Source of the DNA: Citrobacter youngae ATCC 29220
GTDB lineage: Bacteria; Pseudomonadota; Gammaproteobacteria; Enterobacterales; Enterobacteriaceae
Length of the DNA stretch: 64,000 nt
Direction of reading: 5' to 3'
Assembly (NCBI RefSeq): GCF_000155975.1
Contig: NZ_GG730299.1
Span: forward strand, 2,396,204 to 2,460,203
In this document: one piece after another, positions 41,522 through 54,252 of the stretch
Layout of the letters: each line of letters starts with the position of its first letter
How positions within the stretch are numbered: position 1 is the first letter of the stretch
Translations under genes and position numbers: made by a program
The notes under the pieces: model-generated
The model's database searches: none
Seen by the model: the letters and a program-made list of their open reading frames with translations, nothing else
Told to the model about the DNA's origin: nothing

Positions 41522-42476
41522 ATCCTTTCCAGTCGAACGTGACGGGTTTTCCATCGCGCGTAAAGTGAACGCCTTCCACATCCGCACTCATCTGCCCGAT
41601 GCAGGTAAACGAGGTCCCGAGGTGCGCCAGCGCAACGTCCAGCGCGCCACGGTTGATTTCCGGTACGGTAAAGCATAACTCATAATCTTCACCACCCGAG
41701 AGCGCCCAGCGCAGGGCCTGTTCCGGCTCAACGTGCTGTGAAAATGCCGTGGAGTAAGGCAGCGCGTCGACGTTTACCCGCGCGCCGCAGCCGCTGGCAT
41801 TGACGATATGCCCCAGATCGGAAATCAAGCCGTCGGAGAGATCGATAGCCGCGCTCGCCAGATCGCGCAGCGCCTGCCCTTGTAAAATTCGCGGCGTGGG
41901 ACGCAGATGGCGCTTGAGCAGATAATCGGCGTCTTGTGCATCGGCAACCTGCAAGCGGTCCTGCAAAATCGCCAGTCCGGCCGCGCTGTCGCCCGGCGTG
42001 CCGGTCACATAAATCCAGTCGCCCGGCTTCGCTCCGGAGCGTTTTAGGGCGCGCCCAACGGGAACATAGCCATGGATACCCAACGTCATCGACAGCGGCC
42101 CACGCGTGGTGTCACCGCCAATCAGCTGCATATCGTAGTAATTGAGGAGTTCAAACAGGCCATCGCTGAAGGCTTCAAGCCAGGCTTCATCGACGTCAGG
42201 TAACGTGAGCGCCAGCGTCAACCATGCAGGATCGGCTCCCATCGCCGCCAGATCGCTCAAATTCACCGCCAGCGCTTTCCAGGCGAGATCGGCGGGATCA
42301 ATGTCGGGGAGGAAGTGGTTACCTGCCACCAGCGTATCGGTGCTGATCGCCAGCGTCTGTTTTTCAGGGATGTTCAGGAGTGCGCAATCGTCGCCAATAC
42401 CGGTTTCGACATCAAGACGAGACGTTCTTACGCGATCAAAATAACGGGCAATCAGGGAAAATTCGCCGCATGCCAT
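41499..42476 (-). CDS. thiL: Thiamine-monophosphate kinase
   Basis: A 325-residue ATP-dependent kinase turning thiamine phosphate into thiamine diphosphate. It belongs to the PurM-like fold: [30 protein letters not shown] (metal/ATP site), [16 protein letters not shown] and [16 protein letters not shown]. It starts 77 bp after nusB and overlaps pgpA. Confidence 0.97.
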
Positions 42477-42552
42477 ACGTTATGCCTCAGCAGAAAAAAA
42501 GAAAAAGCCGGGGACAGCGGAAACAGGTTCCACCATCCAACCGGCCTCGGGA

Positions 42553-42972
42553 TTACTTTTTGTTGGGGCGAATCACAGGTGCTGCTTTATCCAGTACGCC
42601 GTTAACGAATTTATGGCTGTCTTCGGCGCCGAAGGTTTTCGCCAGTTCAATCGCTTCGTTGATAGCCACTTTGTACGGCACATCACTACGTTTAGACAGT
42701 TCAAACAGCGCAATACGCAGTACGGCTTTTTCTACCTGACCCAGCTCTTCCAGCAGACGAGACAGGTAAGGCTTCATTAATCCATCCAGGTACGCGCTGT
42801 TAGTCGCCACCCCGGACAGCAGCTCACGGAAATACAGAACGTCGACATCTTTAACGTCCTGTTCCGCCAGGAACTGGTATTCAACATCAGCGATGTCGTT
42901 CTGGGACAACTGCCAGGAGTAGAGCGCCTGGACGGCACACTCACGGGCGCGGCGACGAGCAGCAGGTTTCAC
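42553..42972 (-). CDS. nusB: Transcription antitermination factor NusB
   Basis: A 139-residue all-helical factor that binds BoxA RNA with NusE (S10) to support rRNA antitermination. The N-terminal Arg-rich segment [22 protein letters not shown] is the RNA-binding face. It lies between ribE and thiL, 19 bp after ribE. Confidence 0.98.
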
Positions 42973-42991
42973 GGATTTCCCCTTACAAAAA

Positions 42992-43462
42992 TCAGGCCTT
43001 AATGGCTTTCAATACATTAATCATTTCAAGCGCAGTCAGTGCAGCTTCTGCGCCTTTGTTACCGGCTTTCGTGCCAGCACGTTCGATGGCTTGTTCAATA
43101 CTTTCGGTGGTCAGAACACCGAAGGCTACCGGAATACCACTGTCCTGAGCGACATGCGCCAGGCCATTGCTTGCACCGCCAGCCACATATTCGAAGTGCG
43201 CGGTACCGCCACGGATCACCGTACCTAACGCAATCACCGCATCGTATTTACCAGTTTTTGCCAGAGCGTCAGCCGCCAGCGGCAGCTCATACGCGCCTGG
43301 AACCCAAACAACGGTAATATTTTCATCTTTAACCTGGCCAATACGTTTCAGGGCATCGATAGCACCTTCCAGCAGGCTGTCATTGATAAAGTTGTTGAAA
43401 CGCGCAATGGTGATGGCGACGCGAGCGTCCGGAGTAGCAACGTTAGCTTCAATAATGTTCAT
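42992..43462 (-). CDS. ribE: 6,7-dimethyl-8-ribityllumazine synthase
   Basis: A 156-residue lumazine synthase (ribE/ribH), the penultimate riboflavin enzyme, forming 60-mer capsids in enterics. Signatures: [29 protein letters not shown] and [25 protein letters not shown] (catalytic His). The AAGGAAG site precedes the ATG. It is 90 bp after ribD. Confidence 0.98.
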
Positions 43463-43552
43463 ATTCTTCCTTCGGGTTCGATTTATGGCCCCGCAAGGGG
43501 GGCGGATTTTATCATAATATTCTGTGCGCTGCTTCCTCTAATTCAGAAAGCC

Positions 43553-44656
43553 TCACGCAGTGATTAAATGCAGGCAAACGTCCGGGCCTACCTGGCGTAT
43601 CTCATTGAATTTGAAATGGGGGGCGTCAGCCAGTTTCTCAAGCCCCGGCAGCACACATAATCCTCTTGCATCGCTGCCTAACAGTTTAGGCGCAACATAC
43701 ACGATTAGCTCATCCACCAAACCGGCCTGTAATAACGCGCCCGCAAGAGTAGGACCCGCTTCAACCCAAATGCTGTTAATTTGCTGTTTGCCCAGCTGCA
43801 TCATCAGCACAACCAAATCCAGATGCCCGTTATGTTCCGGTACCTTAATACTGCGAACCGACTCCGGCCAGTGGCGGGTATCGTCTTGCGTTCGGACAAT
43901 CCAGGTTTCCCCCGGCTGTTGCACAATACGGTGCTCCGGCGTTACCTGGTTGTGGCTATCAAGGACAATGCGGATTGGCTGGCGCAGATTTTCCTGCGGG
44001 TAGCTTGCCTGGGTTGACTCCCCAAGCTCCGGCCAACGCACGGTAAGCTGAGGATCGTCCGCCAGTACCGTCGCGCTGCTGGTTAAAATAGCATGGCTTT
44101 GCGCACGCAGCCGTTGCACATCGCGGCGCGCCTGCGGCGAGGTGATCCACTGGCTTTCACCGCTGGCCATCGCCGTACGCCCATCCAGCGAGGCGCCAAG
44201 CTTAAGCTGCAGATACGGAAACCCCGTGCGCATCCGCTTGAGGAAACCTTTATTAAGCTGCTCAACTTCGCTCATCATCAGCCCGTGGCTGACGTCAATC
44301 CCCGCCTGCTGCAAACGGTAGAGCCCACGGCCTGCTACCTGCGGATTGGGATCCTGCATCGCCGCAACGACTCGCGATACGCCCGCCGCAATCAACGCAT
44401 CGCAGCACGGCGGCGTACGACCATGATGGCTACAGGGTTCAAGCGTCACGTAGGCGGTTGCCCCTTGCGCTTTTTCTCCGGCCATACGCAGGGCATGGAC
44501 TTCGGCATGCGGCTCGCCAGCGCGGTAATGATAACCTTCGCCGACGATCTCTCCATCTTTAACAATCACGCAGCCCACGTTAGGGTTGGGATGAGTGGTG
44601 AAACGTCCGCGCGCAGCAAGCTTCAGCGCGCGCGCCATGTACAATTCATCCTGCAT
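43553..44656 (-). CDS. ribD: Bifunctional riboflavin deaminase/reductase RibD
   Basis: A 367-residue enzyme for the second and third steps of riboflavin synthesis. The N-terminal deaminase has the zinc motif HAEVHAL ... EPCSHHGRTPPCCDALI (His50, Cys75, Cys84). The C-terminal DHFR-like reductase begins near residue 147 (PYLQLKLGASLDGRTAMASGESQWITS). The start lies 3 bp after nrdR, with AGGAC inside nrdR. Confidence 0.98.
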   Translation of the reverse strand: MQDELYMARALKLAARGRFTTHPNPNVGCVIVKDGEIVGEGYHYRAGEPHAEVHALRMAGEKAQGATAYVTLEPCSHHGRTPPCCDALIAAGVSRVVAAMQDPNPQVAGRGLYRLQQAGIDVSHGLMMSEVEQLNKGFLKRMRTGFPYLQLKLGASLDGRTAMASGESQWITSPQARRDVQRLRAQSHAILTSSATVLADDPQLTVRWPELGESTQASYPQENLRQPIRIVLDSHNQVTPEHRIVQQPGETWIVRTQDDTRHWPESVRSIKVPEHNGHLDLVVLMMQLGKQQINSIWVEAGPTLAGALLQAGLVDELIVYVAPKLLGSDARGLCVLPGLEKLADAPHFKFNEIRQVGPDVCLHLITA

Positions 44657-44659
44657 GGC

Positions 44660-45124
<465 letters not shown>

Positions 45125-45263
45125 TCAGTGGTTAACAGCAATCTATTTTACCCTGAACTGGCGTGACAACAAAGGCGCAGCGCTTTTGAGACAAAGGATC
45201 GGTGCCTTTGTGCCCGGTGCGCACTACCATTATGTAATCGCGACAATGAAGGAAGTACTCACA

Positions 45264-45803
45264 ATGACAAGACGTTACCTAAGAATTCTCCTGGTGGGAA
45301 GCCTCTTTAGTCTTAGCGCCTGCGCACAGCAAAGCGAAGTGCGCCAGATGCATCAAAGCGTTAGCACACTGAATAAAGAGATGACGCAGCTCAATCAGGA
45401 AACGGTAAAAATTACGCAACAAAATATGTTGAATGCGAAATCAACCAGTGGCGCCTATCTGTTGCCCGGTTCCAAAACTCCAGCCCGTCTGGAGAGCCAG
45501 ATTGGCACGTTACGCATGTCGCTGATGAATATTGCGCCAAACGCCGATGGCACACGGTTAACGCTACGCATTCAGGGCGAGTCCAATACCCCTTTACCCG
45601 CCTTTAGCGCCACCGTAGAGTACGGGCAGATTCAGGGCACCACGGAGAATTATCAGGAAGTGAACGTTCAGAACCAACTGGTTAACGCTCCGGCAAGTAT
45701 TCTTGCCCCCAGCGACGTAGACATTCCGTTGCAGATAAATGGTCTCTCCCCCGACCAGTTGGGATTTGTTCGCATTCACGACGTGCAGCCTGTTAGTCAA
45801 TAA
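45264..45803 (+). CDS. yajI: DUF3251 lipoprotein YajI
   Basis: A 179-residue lipoprotein. The start is MTRRYLRILLVGSLFSLSAC (lipid-carrying Cys20); a much longer open frame reaches back across the divergent nrdR and is rejected. A short coiled-coil follows (SEVRQMHQSVSTLNKEMTQLNQETVKITQQN, about 24-55), then a beta domain. It matches E. coli YajI over its whole length. Its role is unknown. Confidence 0.93.
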   Translation: MTRRYLRILLVGSLFSLSACAQQSEVRQMHQSVSTLNKEMTQLNQETVKITQQNMLNAKSTSGAYLLPGSKTPARLESQIGTLRMSLMNIAPNADGTRLTLRIQGESNTPLPAFSATVEYGQIQGTTENYQEVNVQNQLVNAPASILAPSDVDIPLQINGLSPDQLGFVRIHDVQPVSQ

Positions 45804-45938
45804 ACCTTTTTGCGGAGCGTTTTGTGCGTTCCGCAACATCAACTCGTCCGCTTTTGTTACTCCTCTGACATAACCGATATTTCTGGCAAAACTTGGCAAC
45901 ATTCACCAGAGCCAGTACAATTCGCCACCTAAAGTACG

Positions 45939-46024
45939 CAAACGTGAACGCAATCGATTACGTGAATGATAGAACTGTGAAACAAGACATATTTTTGTGA
46001 ACAATGATTTCTATAATAGGCTCC
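45939..46024 (+). promoter_or_regulatory. tsx promoter region with CRP-like sites
   Basis: A -10 TATAAT is at 46012-46017, and a CRP-like site (aactgtgaaacaagacatat, 45973-45992) is placed for a class II promoter. A second CRP/CytR-type segment (acgtgaacgcaatcgattac) lies just upstream at about 45941-45960. This fits the known tsx P2 promoter, controlled by CRP, CytR and DeoR. Exact start point is inferred. Confidence 0.65.
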
Positions 46025-46049
46025 GAAGAAACACGAAATATTTCTACAC

Positions 46050-46166
46050 AAAATCATGCAAGACGCATCGAGGCGGCAACGGCGTGAATCCCCGGAGCTT
46101 ACATAAGTAAGTGACAGGGGTGAGCAGAGGCAGCCAACAAAGAGGCGGCTTGCAGGATGAAGTGTA
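46050..46166. repeat. Dispersed hairpin repeat in the tsx leader
   Basis: A 117-bp element lies between the tsx promoter and start codon. Outer arms are inverted (tttctacac ... gtgtatagaaa). The inner stem is CCCC-ggag-CTTAC-ataa-GTAAG-tgaca-GGGG. The middle-right part (gccaacaaagaggcggcttg) matches the element at 57.6 kb. It resembles a common hairpin repeat of enterobacterial intergenic DNA; I do not assign a family name. It would be transcribed in the tsx 5' leader. Confidence 0.7.
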
Positions 46167-46225
46167 TAGAAACGCAAATTGCGCATTTTTCTTTCCCGAA
46201 AGGGATTTCAAACAGTGGCATACAT

Positions 46226-47089
46226 ATGAAAAAAACATTACTTGCAGCCGGTGCAGTGCTGGCGCTCTCCTCGTCTTTCACTGCCAACGCAGCAGAAAAT
46301 GACAAACCGCAATATCTGTCCGACTGGTGGCATCAAAGCGTCAACGTGGTGGGTAGCTACCACACCCGTTTCTCTCCGAAACTGAACAACGACGTTTATC
46401 TGGAATACGAAGCGTTTGCCAAAAAAGACTGGTTTGACTTCTATGGCTACATCGATATTCCGAAAACCTTCGATTGGGGTAACGGTAACGACAAAGGTAT
46501 CTGGTCCGACGGTTCCCCGCTGTTTATGGAAATCGAACCGCGTTTCTCCATCGACAAACTGACCGGTGCTGACCTGAGCTTTGGACCGTTCAAAGAATGG
46601 TACTTCGCCAACAACTACATCTACGATATGGGTGATAACAAAGCCAGCCGCCAGAGCACCTGGTACATGGGTCTGGGTACTGATATCGACACCGGTCTGC
46701 CAATGGGTCTGTCCCTGAACGTGTATGCTAAATACCAGTGGCAAAACTATGGCGCATCCAACGAAAACGAGTGGGATGGCTACCGTTTCAAAGTGAAGTA
46801 CTTTGTACCGATCACCCAGGTTTGGGGCGGTCAGCTGACCTACATCGGCTTCACCAACTTCGACTGGGGCTCAGATTTGGGCGATGATCCGAACCGTACC
46901 AGCAACTCTATCGCTTCCAGCCACGTGCTGGCGCTGAACTACGATCACTGGCACTACTCCGTCGTCGCGCGTTACTTCCATAACGGCGGTCAGTGGAAAG
47001 GCGGCGATACTCTGAACTGGGGCGAAGGCGATTTCAGCGCAAAATCTACCGGTTGGGGTGGTTACCTGGTCGTGGGTTACAACTTCTAA
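46226..47089 (+). CDS. tsx: Nucleoside-specific outer-membrane channel Tsx
   Basis: A 287-residue 12-stranded beta-barrel that lets nucleosides (and albicidin, colicin K, T6-type phages) through the outer membrane. Signal peptide [22 protein letters not shown] (22 residues); mature part with [29 protein letters not shown] and a terminal Phe ([10 protein letters not shown]) typical of porins. The start is the MKKTLL ATG; an open frame 23 codons longer runs into the leader. Slightly shorter than the E. coli protein, mainly in loops. Confidence 0.97.
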
Positions 47090-47111
47090 TCCAGACGATT
47101 TATCGCAGACA

Positions 47112-47137
47112 AGCCAGCTTAACCGCTGGCTTTTTTT
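47112..47137 (+). terminator. Terminator after tsx
   Basis: AGCCAGC-N6-GCTGGCT followed by seven T, about 20 bp after the tsx stop. Confidence 0.93.
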
Positions 47138-47251
47138 GTTCCACAGCCTGGCTGTAATGATGATCAGTTAAGCGTGTATGGAGAACGTTTTGCTCTGAAT
47201 AAGTTTCCGTTCACCTTATGAGTGTTGCTTCTCTGATATCGCTATACCCGT

Positions 47252-47745
47252 GAACGTGCAAGGGAGGCCGCCGCCTCCCTTGCATCCCAGGCTCCCGGCG
47301 GGAAAATCGTCGCTGCGCGAGCTATTCGTCTTATTCCGCCTGCCTGTCGGGTCGGGGCCGAGCCTGCGTCCATGCAGGCCGTCCCCTCTGCCCGCATCCC
47401 TGCGGGCAGACCCGGTCAGTCGTCAACGCCTCATCGATTTTCAGCCGGACCGGAGTCATCGCTTCAATGCTCTGACTTCCAGTTAAATCTGTTTTGCTGT
47501 TCAGATATATTCAAATAAAAATACCGATGGTCAGGCGTGGCTGGTCCGGCTGAAAATTGCCGACGTGTTTCCGTAAGGCCGGGAGAACCCGCAGGGATGC
47601 GGGTTCAGGGCGCGCTTTACAGGGAAGTTTCCTCGCGCCCGGCCCGGTAGCCTGGAGGAATAAGCGGAGGGTATTGCGCAGCAACAATTTTCCCGCCGGG
47701 AGCCGGGATTGTAAAGGGCGTGGCGGAACGCCCTTTACACGTTCA
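47252..47745. repeat. Large GC-rich imperfect inverted repeat with nested hairpins
   Basis: The two halves are imperfect reverse complements. Perfect matched blocks include 47290-47307 with 47687-47704 (18 nt) and 47437-47451 with 47543-47557 (15 nt). Each half also has its own hairpins: 47258-47267/47274-47283, 47362-47379, 47391-47406 on the left; 47587-47604, 47608-47614/47634-47640, 47711-47721/47728-47738 on the right. The central loop (47452-47542) is AT-rich. Small ORFs inside show repeat-driven Pro/Arg-rich translation and are not credible genes. It occupies the place of yajD in E. coli. Family and function unknown to me. Confidence 0.8.
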
Positions 47746-47905
47746 CAGGAATCGGTGTTTCAGAGAAAAGATGAACATGAGGTGAACGGAACCCTTGCTC
47801 TGAGAGAGCATATTCACTACCTGCACCAATACAAGTTGATGCTTTCCGAAACTGAGGCGTTAACTAACTGGCATTACACAGCCAGGCTGCGGAGTTTCCA
47901 CAGGC
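47746..47905. other. Unexplained sequence between the inverted repeat and the secF terminator
   Basis: This stretch has no gene I can name. A plus-strand frame gives REHIHYLHQYKLMLSETEALTNWHYTARLRSFHRQKK, a non-repetitive, protein-like run, but it has no proper start except codons shared with the repeat, and it runs into the secF terminator. It may be a gene remnant. No similarity to YajD is apparent. Confidence 0.3.
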
Positions 47906-47935
47906 AAAAAAAATCCCGACCTTGCGATCGGGATT
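47906..47935 (-). terminator. Terminator after secF
   Basis: On the minus strand AATCCCGA-N8-TCGGGATT is followed by a run of T, 33 bp after the secF stop. It ends the queA-tgt-yajC-secD-secF run. Confidence 0.9.
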
Positions 47936-47967
47936 CCAGCTCTTACGCTTCTTGCGTTCTGCGTCGG

Positions 47968-48939
47968 TTAAGGCAGAATTGACGGCTGATCCGCCCCTTC
48001 TTTCTCGACCTTCTGCTGCAGCATGTGCTCACGTTTCATACCCAGCTTCAGCGCCAGCGCCGATGCTACGTAGATAGAAGACGCAGTACCGATGGAAACA
48101 CCGATAAGCATCGTCAGCGAGAAGCCTTCCAGTACCGGACCACCGAACAGGAACAGCATCAGAATAACCATCAACGTCGTACCGGACGTAATCAACGTAC
48201 GGTGCAGCGTCTGAGTCAATGACACGTTAAAGATTTCGTAAGGCGTACCGCGACGAATTTTGCGGAAGTTTTCACGAATACGGTCAGAAACTACGATACT
48301 GTCGTTTAGCGAGTAACCGATTACCGACATCAGCGATGCAACGATAGTCAGGTCAATCTCGATATGGAACAACGACAGGATCCCAAGCGTGATGATTACG
48401 TCGTGCGCCAGCGCGATAACCACACCAGCCGCCAGTCGCCACTCGAAGCGGAAACCGACGTACACCAGGATGGAGATCAGCGCCGCCATCAGCGCCATCG
48501 CACCGGTCTGCGCCAGGTCAGCCCCCACGCTCGGCCCCACGAATTCAATTCGTTTCACCGCGGCGTTTTGGTTGGTGGACTCGTTAATCACACTCAACAC
48601 TTTGCTGCCCAGCACCTGACCACCGTCTGCGCCTTCAGTTGGCGGCATACGCACCATAATGTCGTGGCTGCTGCCGAAGTTCTGCAGCAGCGGCTCAACG
48701 AAGCCCGCCTTCTCCAGCGCATCGCGCATCACGTCCATATCTGCTGGTTTTTCCAGCGTGATTTCAATTACCGTACCACCGGTGAAATCGAGCCCCCAGT
48801 TAAAGCCGCGCACGCCCATAATCACAACGGCCGCGATCAGCAGAAAACCTGAAATGCCGAAAGCCCAGTAGTCCCAGCGCATAAAGTCCCAGACTTTACG
48901 GCCGTGGTTCAATTGTTCAACAGTATATTCCTGTGCCAC
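47968..48939 (-). CDS. secF: Protein translocase subunit SecF
   Basis: A 323-residue membrane subunit of SecDF-YajC, which uses the proton gradient to help secretion through SecYEG. Six membrane helices with one large periplasmic loop; signatures [17 protein letters not shown] and [17 protein letters not shown]. The start codon is GTG ([11 protein letters not shown]) after GGAG, as in E. coli; the longer ATG frame overlaps secD and is not used. It begins 10 bp after secD. Confidence 0.97.
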
Positions 48940-48949
48940 TTCGCACTCC

Positions 48950-50797
48950 TCAGATTGACAGCTTTTTGACGCGCTTGCCGCCATACAACAGGTTTACGAT
49001 GGCACGTGTACCGACAATCGCGGTAAACATCGACGTCGCTACACCAATACCGGTAGTAATCGCGAACCCTTTAATTGCCCCGGTGCCGACTGCGTACAGA
49101 ATGATAACCTTAATCAGCGTCGTAATGTTCGCATCGAAGATGGAGCTAAATGCGCCCGCATAACCTTCATTGATGGCCTGTTGCACCGAACGCCCGTTAC
49201 TCAACTCTTCTTTGATACGCTCGTTGATCAGTACGTTAGCATCGACCGCCACCGCAAGGGTTAAGACGATCCCCGCAATACCCGGCATACTCAGCGTGGC
49301 GCCAGGCAACAGCGACATAATGCCGACAATCAGTACCAGGTTGGCAACCAGCGCGCTGGTCGCAATCAGACCAAACTTCTTATAGAAGAAGATCATGAAC
49401 AGGATAGACACCACCAGACCGGCCAGACACGCTTCCAGACCCTGTTTGATGTTCTGCATACCCAGAGTTGGACCGATAGTACGTTCTTCAACAATCTGAA
49501 TCGGCGCAATCAACGCACCGGCACGCAGCAGCAGAGACAGCTGACGCGCTTCGTTCGGGTTGTTGATACCGGTGATACGGAAGCTGTTACCCAGGCGAGA
49601 CTGGATGTTGGCGATGTTAATCACCTCTTCCTGTTTCACCAACACGGCACGACCGTTAGCATCTTTTTTACCGCTGTCTTTGTACTCCACGAACAGGGTC
49701 GCCATCGGCTTACCGATGTTGTCCTTAGTGAAGTTAGACATGATGTTACCACCCGCGCTATCCAGCGAGATGTTAACCTGCGGCTGATTGTATTCGTCCT
49801 GGCTGGAGGTGGAGTCGGTGATATGGTCACCGGTCAGGATCACGCGTTTGTACAGCACAACCGGCTGACCTTCGCGAGTCTGTTTCACTTCCGAATCACC
49901 CGGTACACGCCCGGATGCCGCAGCAGACTGGTCAACGTTGGTGTTTACCAGACGGAATTCCAGCGTCGCGGTCGCGCCCAAAATTTCTTTCGCGCGCGCG
50001 GTATCCTGAATACCCGGCAGTTCGACCACAATGCGGTCAGCACCCTGACGTTGTACAACCGGCTCAGCAACACCCAACTGGTTAACACGATTACGCAAAA
50101 TGTTGATGTTCTGCTGTACCGCGTATTCACGGGCTTCGCTCAGACGCGCATCGGTCATCACCGCACGCAGAGCATTGCTGCCCTGGCTGGAAATAACCAG
50201 ATCCTGGTGACGCTTGCTCAGATAAGAGATAGCTTCATCACGGGCGTTGCTGTCACGGAAGGTGATGCTCAGGCCGTAGTTATCTTCTTTACGAACGGTA
50301 GTATAAGGAATGCCTTTTTCACGCAGATCGCTGCGCAGGCTATCGATATTTTGTTCCTGCAACTTACTCAGCGCAGTGTCCATATCCACTTCCATCAGGA
50401 AGTGAACGCCGCCACGCAGGTCAAGACCGAGTTTCATCGGTTCTGCATGAATGGCCGCCAGCCAGCGCGGGGTTGCCGGAGCAAGGTTAAGCGCCACGAC
50501 GTATTGATCGCCCAGCACGCCCATCAGCACTTCACGTGCGCGCAATTGGGTATCAGTGGAGTCAAAGCGCGCAAGAATAGCGCCCTCTTCCAGAGCCACA
50601 GACTTAGGTGTGATTTTATCTTCTTGTAACGTTTTCTGGACCTGGATCAGCGTTTGCTCACTGGCGGCGGCACCGCGCACGCCAGTGATCTGAACAGCCG
50701 GATCCTCACCATACAGGTTGGGAAGTGCGTAAAGCAGGCCGACGACAATAACGACGACCAGCATAATGTACTTCCACAAAGGATAACGGTTTAACAC
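48950..50797 (-). CDS. secD: Protein translocase subunit SecD
   Basis: A 615-residue partner of SecF. One N-terminal helix, a large periplasmic P1 domain (about 35-450), then five further helices. Motifs: [17 protein letters not shown] (D1), [25 protein letters not shown] and [20 protein letters not shown] (D4, with the proton-path Asp). 27 bp after yajC. Matches E. coli in length. Confidence 0.98.
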
Positions 50798-50824
50798 GGC
50801 AGTTCCCTTTGGGAAAACAATAAA

Positions 50825-51157
50825 TTACAGCGCCTTCATGGTGCCTTTCGGCAGGACGGCAGCTACGAAATCACGTTTGATAACCACTTCAGTGGTGTCG
50901 TTCAGCGCGATAGCGATGTAGCCAGATTCTGCTACTTTGGTCACGCGACCCACCAGACCACCGTTGGTCAGCACTTCATCACCTTTCGCAATGGAGTTCA
51001 TCAGATTTTTGTGTTCTTTGGTACGCTTTTGCTGCGGGCGCAGGATCATGAAGTAGAAAATCAGACCAAACACCACCAGCATCAGAATCAGAGACATCGG
51101 GCTGCCCTGCGCCGGAGCACCTGTTGCCGCTACCGCATCAGAAATAAAAAAGCTCAT
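50825..51157 (-). CDS. yajC: Sec translocon accessory subunit YajC
   Basis: A 110-residue single-pass membrane protein of the SecDF-YajC complex. One helix (SLILMLVVFGLIFYFMILRP, about 19-38), followed by a cytoplasmic SH3-like part (KGDEVLTNGGLVGRVTKVAESGYIAIALNDTTEVVIKRDFV). Lies 22 bp after tgt. Confidence 0.97.
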   Translation of the reverse strand: MSFFISDAVAATGAPAQGSPMSLILMLVVFGLIFYFMILRPQQKRTKEHKNLMNSIAKGDEVLTNGGLVGRVTKVAESGYIAIALNDTTEVVIKRDFVAAVLPKGTMKAL

Positions 51158-51179
51158 TCAAATTCCCTCATTATTAAAA

Positions 51180-52510
<1,331 letters not shown>

Positions 52511-52515
52511 CCTTC

Positions 52516-53580
52516 TCACGGTCGCTCAGAAATAGCCTGCGGATTGTACGTGATAAACATGGCATCGCCGTAACTAAAAAAGCGATATTCCGCTTTTACC
52601 GCTTCATGATACGCGTGCATGGTGTTTTTATAACCAGCAAACGCGGAAACCAGCATAATCAGCGTCGATTCAGGCAGATGGAAGTTAGTCACCAGCGCAT
52701 CAATCACTTTGTATTGATAGCCTGGGTAAATGAATATCTGCGTATCGCCAAAGAACGGTGCAATGAGATCGTTTTTGGCAGCCTGCGCCGCGCTCTCCAA
52801 CGAACGCACGGAGGTGGTGCCCACCGCAATCACGCGGTTACCGCGCGCTTTCGCCGCCAGTACCGCATCGACGACATCCTGCGGCACTTCCGCATATTCG
52901 GAGTGCATGATGTGATCTTCGATAGTGTCTACGCGCACCGGCTGGAAGGTGCCCGCGCCCACGTGCAGCGTGACGAACGCCATCTCGATGCCTTTTTCGC
53001 GCAGCTTCGCCAGCAGCCGCTCGTCAAAGTGCAGGCCCGCGGTCGGCGCAGCGACGGCGCCCGGTTTTTCGCTATACACGGTCTGGTACAGTTCGCGGTC
53101 GGCATCTTCATCCGGACGGTCGATATACGGCGGCAGCGGCATATGGCCGATGGCGTTGAGGATATCGAGCACGCTGCGTTCGTCGTCGAACTCCACTTCA
53201 AACAGCGCATCGTGGCGCGCGACCATCGTCGCTTTAATGCTTTCGTCGTCGCCCAAAAGCAGCTCCGCTCCCGGCTTCGGCGCTTTCGAGGCGCGAATAT
53301 GCGCCAGAATACGTTTGTCATCCAGCATACGCTCAACCAGCACTTCAATCTTGCCGCCGCTGGCTTTACGGCCAAACAGACGCGCAGGAATGACGCGGGT
53401 GTTGTTAAAGACCAGCAAATCTCCAGGGTTGAGCTTATCGAGCAGATCGGTGAAAGTACCGTGCGTCAGCGCGCCCGTCGGCCCGTCCAGGGACAGCAAG
53501 CGGCAGCTACTGCGCTCAGCCTGCGGATAGTGGGCAATCAGGGATTCGGGTAGTTCAAAGGTGAAATCGGTAACGCGCAT
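52516..53580 (-). CDS. queA: S-adenosylmethionine:tRNA ribosyltransferase-isomerase
   Basis: A 354-residue enzyme that transfers and isomerises ribose from SAM to preQ1-tRNA, making epoxyqueuosine. Recognised by [69 protein letters not shown] and [12 protein letters not shown]. First gene of the queA-tgt-yajC-secD-secF run. A 352-codon opposite-strand frame here is a shadow. Divergent from acpH. Confidence 0.98.
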
Positions 53581-53670
53581 GACACTGACTCAGACTAAAA
53601 TAAGAGGCGGGTAGTCTAGTGCCGGGGCGTTCTCCCTGCAACCTTTACCCCTCTGGATAAACGTTTAACT

Positions 53671-54252
53671 ATGAATTTTCTTGCGCACCTGCACTTAGCA
53701 CATTTAGCGGATAGCTCACTTTCCGGCAATCTGCTGGCCGATTTTGTTCGCGGTAACCCGGCAGCCAGTTTTCCCCCTGACGTGGTGGAAGGCATCTTCA
53801 TGCACCGTCGTATCGACGTGATGACCGATAACCTGCCGCAGGTCCGTGAAGCCAAAGAGTGGTTTCGTAGCGAAACGCGCCGCGTCGCGCCGATTACGCT
53901 GGACGTCATGTGGGATCATTTTCTGTCGCGCCACTGGCCGGAAATTTCCCCTGACTTCCCACTGACGGAGTTTGTGCGCTATGCCCGCACCCAGGTGACC
54001 ACGATTTTGCCGGAATCGCCGCCGCGCTTTATCAATCTGAACAACTATATATGGTCAGAGAAATGGCTTGAGCGCTATCGGGACATGGATTTTATCCAGA
54101 ACGTCCTGAACGGCATGGCCAGCCGCCGCCCGCGTCTCGATGCCCTGCGCGACTCATGGTATGACCTCGATACACATTACGATGCGTTAGAAGAACGTTT
54201 CTGGCAGTTTTATCCGCAGATGATGGAACAGGCGCAGCGTAAAACCCTTTGA
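53671..54252 (+). CDS. acpH: Acyl carrier protein phosphodiesterase AcpH
   Basis: A 193-residue HD-related enzyme that removes the phosphopantetheine arm from holo-ACP. Conserved histidines and aspartates: [38 protein letters not shown] and [15 protein letters not shown]. Same length as E. coli AcpH (YajB). It is followed by a partial REP and then the peroxiredoxin gene. Confidence 0.96.

Follow-up and report, generated by a model that had tools for sequence, protein, structure and literature searches.

The imperfect palindrome of ~490 bp at 47252-47745 of the window (the whole 64,000-nucleotide stretch of DNA analysed here) is, judging from sequence comparison, part of a 722-bp element, 47155-47876, bounded by IS4-like ends. 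In our view this element is rather probably an IS4-mobilised MITE that spreads an outward-facing pair of CsrA-binding (sponge-type) RNA modules, transcribed by terminator read-through. The ingredients, i.e. an IS4-type MITE and an RNA of the TwoAYGGAY/CsrB clan, are known in kind, and their combination is unreported in the open-access literature that we searched.

The preliminary description had reported this palindrome with two perfect anchors and mirrored GC-rich hairpins in its two halves, all of which we recovered. The 18-nt anchor GGCTCCCGGCGGGAAAAT (47290-47307/47687-47704) and the 15-nt anchor ATTTTCAGCCGGACC (47437-47451/47543-47557) match exactly, and the mirrored hairpins are present. 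Half aligned locally against half, the interval 47252-47745 gives a score of 101 (145/204 identical), against a maximum of 27 among 300 dinucleotide-preserving shuffles. The symmetry is wider than claimed and reaches 47140-47893: the interval 47140-47894 scores 123 (180/254 identical; maximum of 300 such shuffles, 31), and complementarity is 72% between the 60-nt arms 47205-47264/47732-47791 and 94% between the 16-nt arms 47140-47155/47878-47893. The features of the element and its borders are the following.

47142..47154, plus strand: target duplication, left copy CACAGCCTGGCTG, terminator-like hairpin; 12/13 identical to the right copy
47155..47876, no strand: whole mobile element, IS4-type MITE, 722 bp; terminal repeats located by sequence comparison
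47155..47172, plus strand: left terminal repeat TAATGATGATCAGTTAAG; resembles the ends of a same-genus IS4-family element
47205..47256, minus strand: hairpin P7 of the left module (GTTCAC...GTGAAC)
47257..47284, minus strand: hairpin P6 of the left module
47289..47448, minus strand: left RNA core module, 160 nt, predicted, GGA loops on the minus strand; model R1, 157.3 bits, a score that is not independent, the module being a row of that model's own alignment
47367..47374, minus strand: CsrA-type loop CATGGACG, hairpin P5 of the left module
47395..47402, minus strand: CsrA-type loop CAGGGATG, hairpin P4 of the left module
47449..47545, no strand: spacer between the modules, 97 bp; 42% G+C vs 67% and 63% in the modules
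47546..47705, plus strand: right RNA core module, 160 nt, predicted, GGA loops on the plus strand; model R1, 188.3 bits, likewise from a row of the model and not independent
47592..47599, plus strand: CsrA-type loop CAGGGATG, hairpin P4 of the right module
47620..47627, plus strand: CsrA-type loop CAGGGAAG, hairpin P5 of the right module
47710..47739, plus strand: hairpin P6 of the right module
47740..47791, plus strand: hairpin P7 of the right module (GTTCAC...GTGAAC)
47859..47876, minus strand: right terminal repeat, reverse complement TAATGCCAGTTAGTTAAC; located by copy alignment
47877..47889, plus strand: target duplication, right copy CACAGCCAGGCTG; the relative G014 (locus L100) has the same insertion, internally deleted

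P6 then P7 thus stand outward of each core module. Across the family the loop of P6 (47257-47284 and 47710-47739 in the window) often begins GGCG. A consensus scan found no sigma-70-like promoter in the spacer 47449..47545; its sole hit (47715-47687, minus strand) falls inside the right core and P6. The module showed neither a promoter nor a terminator of its own.

The ends of the element were exposed by an alignment of 27 copies, chosen as near full length. In one of the 17 genomes of the genus (G003) an IS4-family element, inserted in a terminator with a 12-bp duplication, has the ends CAATGCCGATCAGTTAAG / CAATGCCGTTCACTTAAG, similar to TAATGATGATCAGTTAAG / TAATGCCAGTTAGTTAAC of the window, and carries a 455-codon frame; the E. 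coli records that match it best, at ~90% identity, bear the annotation IS4 family transposase. IS1 ends had been considered for the terminal repeats and were dropped for IS4 when the ends of this same-genus element were checked. The target duplication of IS4 is about 10-13 bp long. The flanking repeats of the window element, CACAGCC[T/A]GGCTG, are 13 bp with one mismatch, and another copy, L039, interrupts a terminator and is flanked on both sides by the exact 10-bp repeat CCGGTAACGG. Both marks of a MITE, terminal inverted repeats matching those of an autonomous element and a target duplication of ~10-13 bp, are therefore found. By eye, no transposase was seen among the listed open reading frames around the element. 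Nterm_IS4 (PF13006), found in 1/17 genus genomes, has no match in the window's own genome, whose copies would therefore be stranded unless a transposase arrives.

The terminator hit in L039 is uninterrupted in 10 of the 17 genus genomes. The remaining seven comprise two with L039's copy (L181, L182), three with another copy at or near the terminator (L192, L183, L189), one with an insertion beside it (L195) and one with apparent element ends around other sequence (L194). This last locus belongs to the window's own genome, and by eye its hotspot terminator (1981-2140) holds apparent element ends around REP-like sequence, as though REPs had taken the place of a lost middle; it is probably an internally deleted copy. 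Direct repeats in the flanks score at least 6 in 6/19 copies vs 3/342 cross-pairs, with 13/19 copies below this threshold. The 19 are those of the 27 full copies for which we could place both termini; some rows record one insertion shared by two species, and the right end of one row (L045) is doubtful. Compared in this way, the sequences show an element that is non-autonomous and inserts into intrinsic-terminator hairpins. The non-autonomous mobile unit proposed in the preliminary description is thus borne out by IS4-like ends, a target duplication, empty sites and multiple copies.

In the window the element interrupts a terminator-like hairpin in the tsx-secF interval, and had been described as standing in place of yajD. 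Within the genus this wording does not hold, since the tsx-secF interval differs among 16 relatives and is mostly other sequence: ~1.16-1.40 kb in 11/16 and 113-146 bp in 3/16, the interval of G014 having the window's insertion with its middle deleted and that of one relative being unreadable. One of the eleven longer intervals (L092) contains frames of 230 and 121 aa, which by eye look like a helix-turn-helix/WYL regulator and a glyoxalase-type protein. Directly upstream of tsx (46080-46165) there is a sequence that we take, by eye, to be ERIC-like.

The element is far from unique to this strain. A blastn search of the stretch against its own genome gave 38 matches, several places being counted twice because a palindrome matches in reverse too; the RNA model R1 gave at least 18 core matches (24 candidates scored). 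Among 40 genomes, blastn matches were found in 15, all of the window's genus (15/17 genus genomes; 0/23 outside), and one record of C. freundii aligns at 88% across 86% of the query. In E. coli, 5375 of 5426 genomes contain partial matches, each genome at 1-8 places; 30 listed E. coli places have no annotated feature. The E. coli sites that we opened lie between dusC and yohP and between yegH and asmA (convergent genes), and between an MFS transporter gene and proX and between mmuM and tauA (co-directional genes). With model R1, diverged members appeared in 35/119 sampled genomes of the bacterial family and matches in 13/197 genomes sampled from the order, six of them outside the family; one K. 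pneumoniae record gave 12 matches. One element copy (L030, 1501-2652) shares its locus with the GlmY sRNA gene.

A phage origin was rejected, with 0 matches among 50,697 phage records. The plasmid leading-region element that had also been put forward finds no support and was rejected in turn: 18/72,556 plasmid records match, and the six opened (H31, H32, H34, H36, H38, H39; H34 is 5.4 Mb) have the match beside chromosome-type genes. A C. freundii plasmid record (L050, 6001-6669) has a near-full copy between yeiP and torD, likewise chromosome-type genes.

The layout of the modules was analyzed in two sets of selected loci, A2 (29 loci) and A3 (31 loci), with 92 cores together. More than one core is present in 24/60 loci. 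Of 32 pairs of neighbouring cores separated by under 700 nt, 26 are head-to-head, 4 tail-to-tail (between array units in L070 and L077) and 2 in tandem. The L070 array (228-2303), in another genus, strings several head-to-head units together in tandem. Modules found in the K. pneumoniae record and at the E. coli loci that we opened stand alone, apart from one tandem case.

Each half of the palindrome, as the comparison of its relatives shows, is predicted to fold as a multibranched RNA module of 160 nt, in which a long stem closes off two hairpins whose loops read C-ANGGAN-G. In alignment A1 (16 cores that represent the 66 distinct ones, clustered at 93%) 97.7% of cells are paired, a value reached by 0/500 shuffles, while slid structures give 31-43%, a control in which the structure is favoured as it was derived from A1 itself. 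Changes on both sides were found in 24 of the 47 predicted pairs. Further pair types in A1 are not above shuffles (33 vs 30.1; 58/500 as high). The structured RNA, or selection on structure, suggested in the preliminary description agrees with these compensatory changes, which keep the pairing, and with the conserved GGA loops; the family is both dispersed and covarying. Had the element been an ordinary selfish MITE whose inner palindrome is a decaying inverted duplication without function of its own, internally deleted copies such as L100, probably L194, and the L060 copy (1300-1405) that lacks the two-hairpin part would come as no surprise, but neither the compensatory changes, nor the GGA loops kept across distant genera, nor the head-to-head pairing in many loci with more than one core would be expected. 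This reading is already disfavoured and we regard it as very unlikely.

The kind of pairs at paired sites bears on which strand folds. G-U exceeds A-C in A1 (11 vs 0; A-G 15) and in A2 (43 vs 16; A-G mismatches, 65, are above G-U), A2 leaning to model R1, to which it and A3 were aligned with related rows included. The GGA strand is therefore favoured as the folded one. Were the full palindrome transcribed in one piece, the RNA could form a single long hairpin. The folded strand might instead act as DNA, its hairpins and loops serving as recognition sites for a transposase or other DNA-binding protein in transposition or replication, the likeness to CsrA sites being coincidental. The palindromic architecture fits such a role, as do the K. 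pneumoniae modules (L129-L140), which are near-identical, single and dispersed and have no IS4-like ends by eye, so that the module may itself be moved or homogenised by some agent; many have beside them what is presumably REP-like sequence (by eye). But the excess of G-U over A-C points to a single RNA strand, the loops bear the CsrA consensus, relatives of the module belong to a CsrB-clan RNA family, and the copies of the window's genus already own IS4-type ends, a sufficient mobility system. We thus consider a role of the fold as DNA unlikely.

The candidate CsrA sites are the two GGA loops, P4 and P5. In A1 the sequence CANGGANG is present in both loops in 15/16 rows, L058 being one base short in the second; in A2 it is found twice or more in 29/54 cores, once in 20/54, and is absent in 5/54. 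For A2 and A3 together, which lean to model R1, GGA hairpins stand at both places in 74/92 cores, at one in 18/92 and at neither in 0/92, as counted by a script requiring three contiguous pairs; L060 1300-1405 is among the 18 one-hairpin cores. The two GGAs are 28 or 29 nt apart in 53 of the 74 cores. As a control, the best hairpin in the 70 nt past the core (P6) has GGA in its loop in only 12/87 cases (87 hairpins from 91 flanked cores, out of 92). Across the aligned cores the hairpin loops keep the consensus of a putative CsrA site, CANGGANG, while the stems vary.

These features can be compared with the CsrA SELEX consensus, RUACARGGAUGU, whose hairpins mostly have six-base loops and four or fewer contiguous pairs (PMC7652899). 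A loop GGA in a ACANGGANGU-like context, as expected of a CsrA-binding RNA, is found, with stems longer than those of most SELEX ligands. The P4 stems are long, often of 9 pairs, which argues against high CsrA affinity; the P5 stem is often short. The host genome has csrA (one match) and CsrB. The genes asmA, yegH, dusC and yohP, which flank E. coli copies, go unmentioned in the main text of the CLIP-seq study of E. coli CsrA. Gene orientation was tried as a test of the transcribed strand and is uninformative because many opened sites lie between convergent genes and those between co-directional genes show either orientation: the E. coli proX copy is sense, and the K. pneumoniae copy is antisense to its upstream co-directional gene, ccmI.

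The hairpins could also work without CsrA, stabilising or insulating 3' ends in both directions in place of the struck terminator. Insertion into terminators, near 3' ends, speaks for this, and 25/27 copies have a flanking frame directed into the element on one side or both, by a crude ORF method that may pick the wrong strand. Stabilising stems, however, need no conserved loops, yet here the GGA loops are kept while the stems vary, and in the window neither P6 nor P7 is followed by a U-run. A stabiliser of this kind appears improbable to us.

The nearest described RNA is TwoAYGGAY (RF01731), which has, like our module, an outer stem around two hairpins with A(N)GGA(N) loops, and which shares the Rfam clan CL00106 with CsrB. 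At the gathering score Rfam gave no family in 42000-54000 of the window. Scored directly with RF01731, the modules of the genus and of E. coli fall below the 43-bit cut-off, the best (L003, in the same genome) reaching 42.7 bits; a whole-genome search of the window's genome with this model returned nothing at E<=10, missing even that copy. Among the 39 family loci scanned five pass, in the module's place and strand: L158 (46.0 bits), matched over the whole model, and L073 (53.2), L074 (53.0), L064 (49.2) and L075 (43.2), matched over the two-hairpin part only. Since only these five relatives reach the cut-off and the window copy does not, the window module is, by its score, a relative and not a passing member of RF01731. 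Its loops, AGGGAU and AUGGAC on the left, AGGGAU and AGGGAA on the right, are ANGGAN and not strict AYGGAY; the two-hairpin architecture is present. TwoAYGGAY was listed in 2010 from human gut, gamma-Proteobacteria and Clostridiales (PMC2864571). It has been called a family of unknown function and proposed to bind CsrA (PMC4333381), and Rfam 15 places it among the families with improved structure and more covarying pairs (PMC11701678). In contrast to TwoAYGGAY, the module described here is a dispersed repeat, often in head-to-head pairs.

Other known systems share single traits with the element. With IS4 (IS4 family) and MITEs it has in common its ends, similar to those of the same-genus IS4-family element, duplications of 10, 12 and 13 bp and terminator-hairpin targets, whereas it has no transposase inside and carries a paired RNA module as cargo. 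ERIC, REP/BIME, YPAL and RU are, as is the element, intergenic palindromic repeats of enterobacteria; it is set apart from them, on their descriptions, by its far larger size, its branched covarying structure and its conserved GGA loops. The stem-loop families listed for E. coli and Salmonella are BoxC, Eco-1, ERIC, PU-BIME, Sal-1 and Sal-2, Eco-1 being given as genic and unable to fold; the comparison with this source is by description only (PMC2267715). Sponges of the CsrB, CsrC or RsmZ type also have GGA in hairpin loops (CsrB alone is in the same clan), but they are single stand-alone genes while the module is multi-copy, mobile and has two sites; CsrB itself has many CsrA sites (PMC7652899). 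By title and abstract, no paper that we found in the open-access literature, which covers few subscription journals, presents the repeat described here or any mobile CsrA-binding module.

We therefore return to the IS4-mobilised pair of CsrA-binding modules, for which the following scheme can be proposed. Through its IS4-type ends, the non-autonomous element would insert into intrinsic-terminator hairpins. Transcription reading through from genes with an invaded terminator, or starting at a spacer promoter that our scan missed, would produce the GGA strand of the downstream module. Given the head-to-head layout, transcription entering from either side would yield an RNA with one functional module. 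One CsrA dimer might be held across the two loops of each module RNA. The dispersed copies could then serve as CsrA sites in cis at 3' ends, or as a distributed CsrA sponge beside CsrB/CsrC; we infer CsrA binding and read-through transcription, together with either titration or local recruitment. More tentatively, and as a possibility that we would not yet favour, the whole may be a transposable family with a CsrA-sponge cargo, whose modules jump into terminators, use read-through and titrate or locally recruit CsrA according to copy number.

If true, this would account for a repeat of which almost every complete E. coli genome contains partial matches, and the long-orphan TwoAYGGAY motif would acquire a home and a genomic habit, as well as a partner open to testing. 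A mobile element would be spreading the binding sites of a post-transcriptional global regulator at gene 3' ends and, should the sponge reading hold, transposon load would be tied to the control of metabolism and lifestyle.
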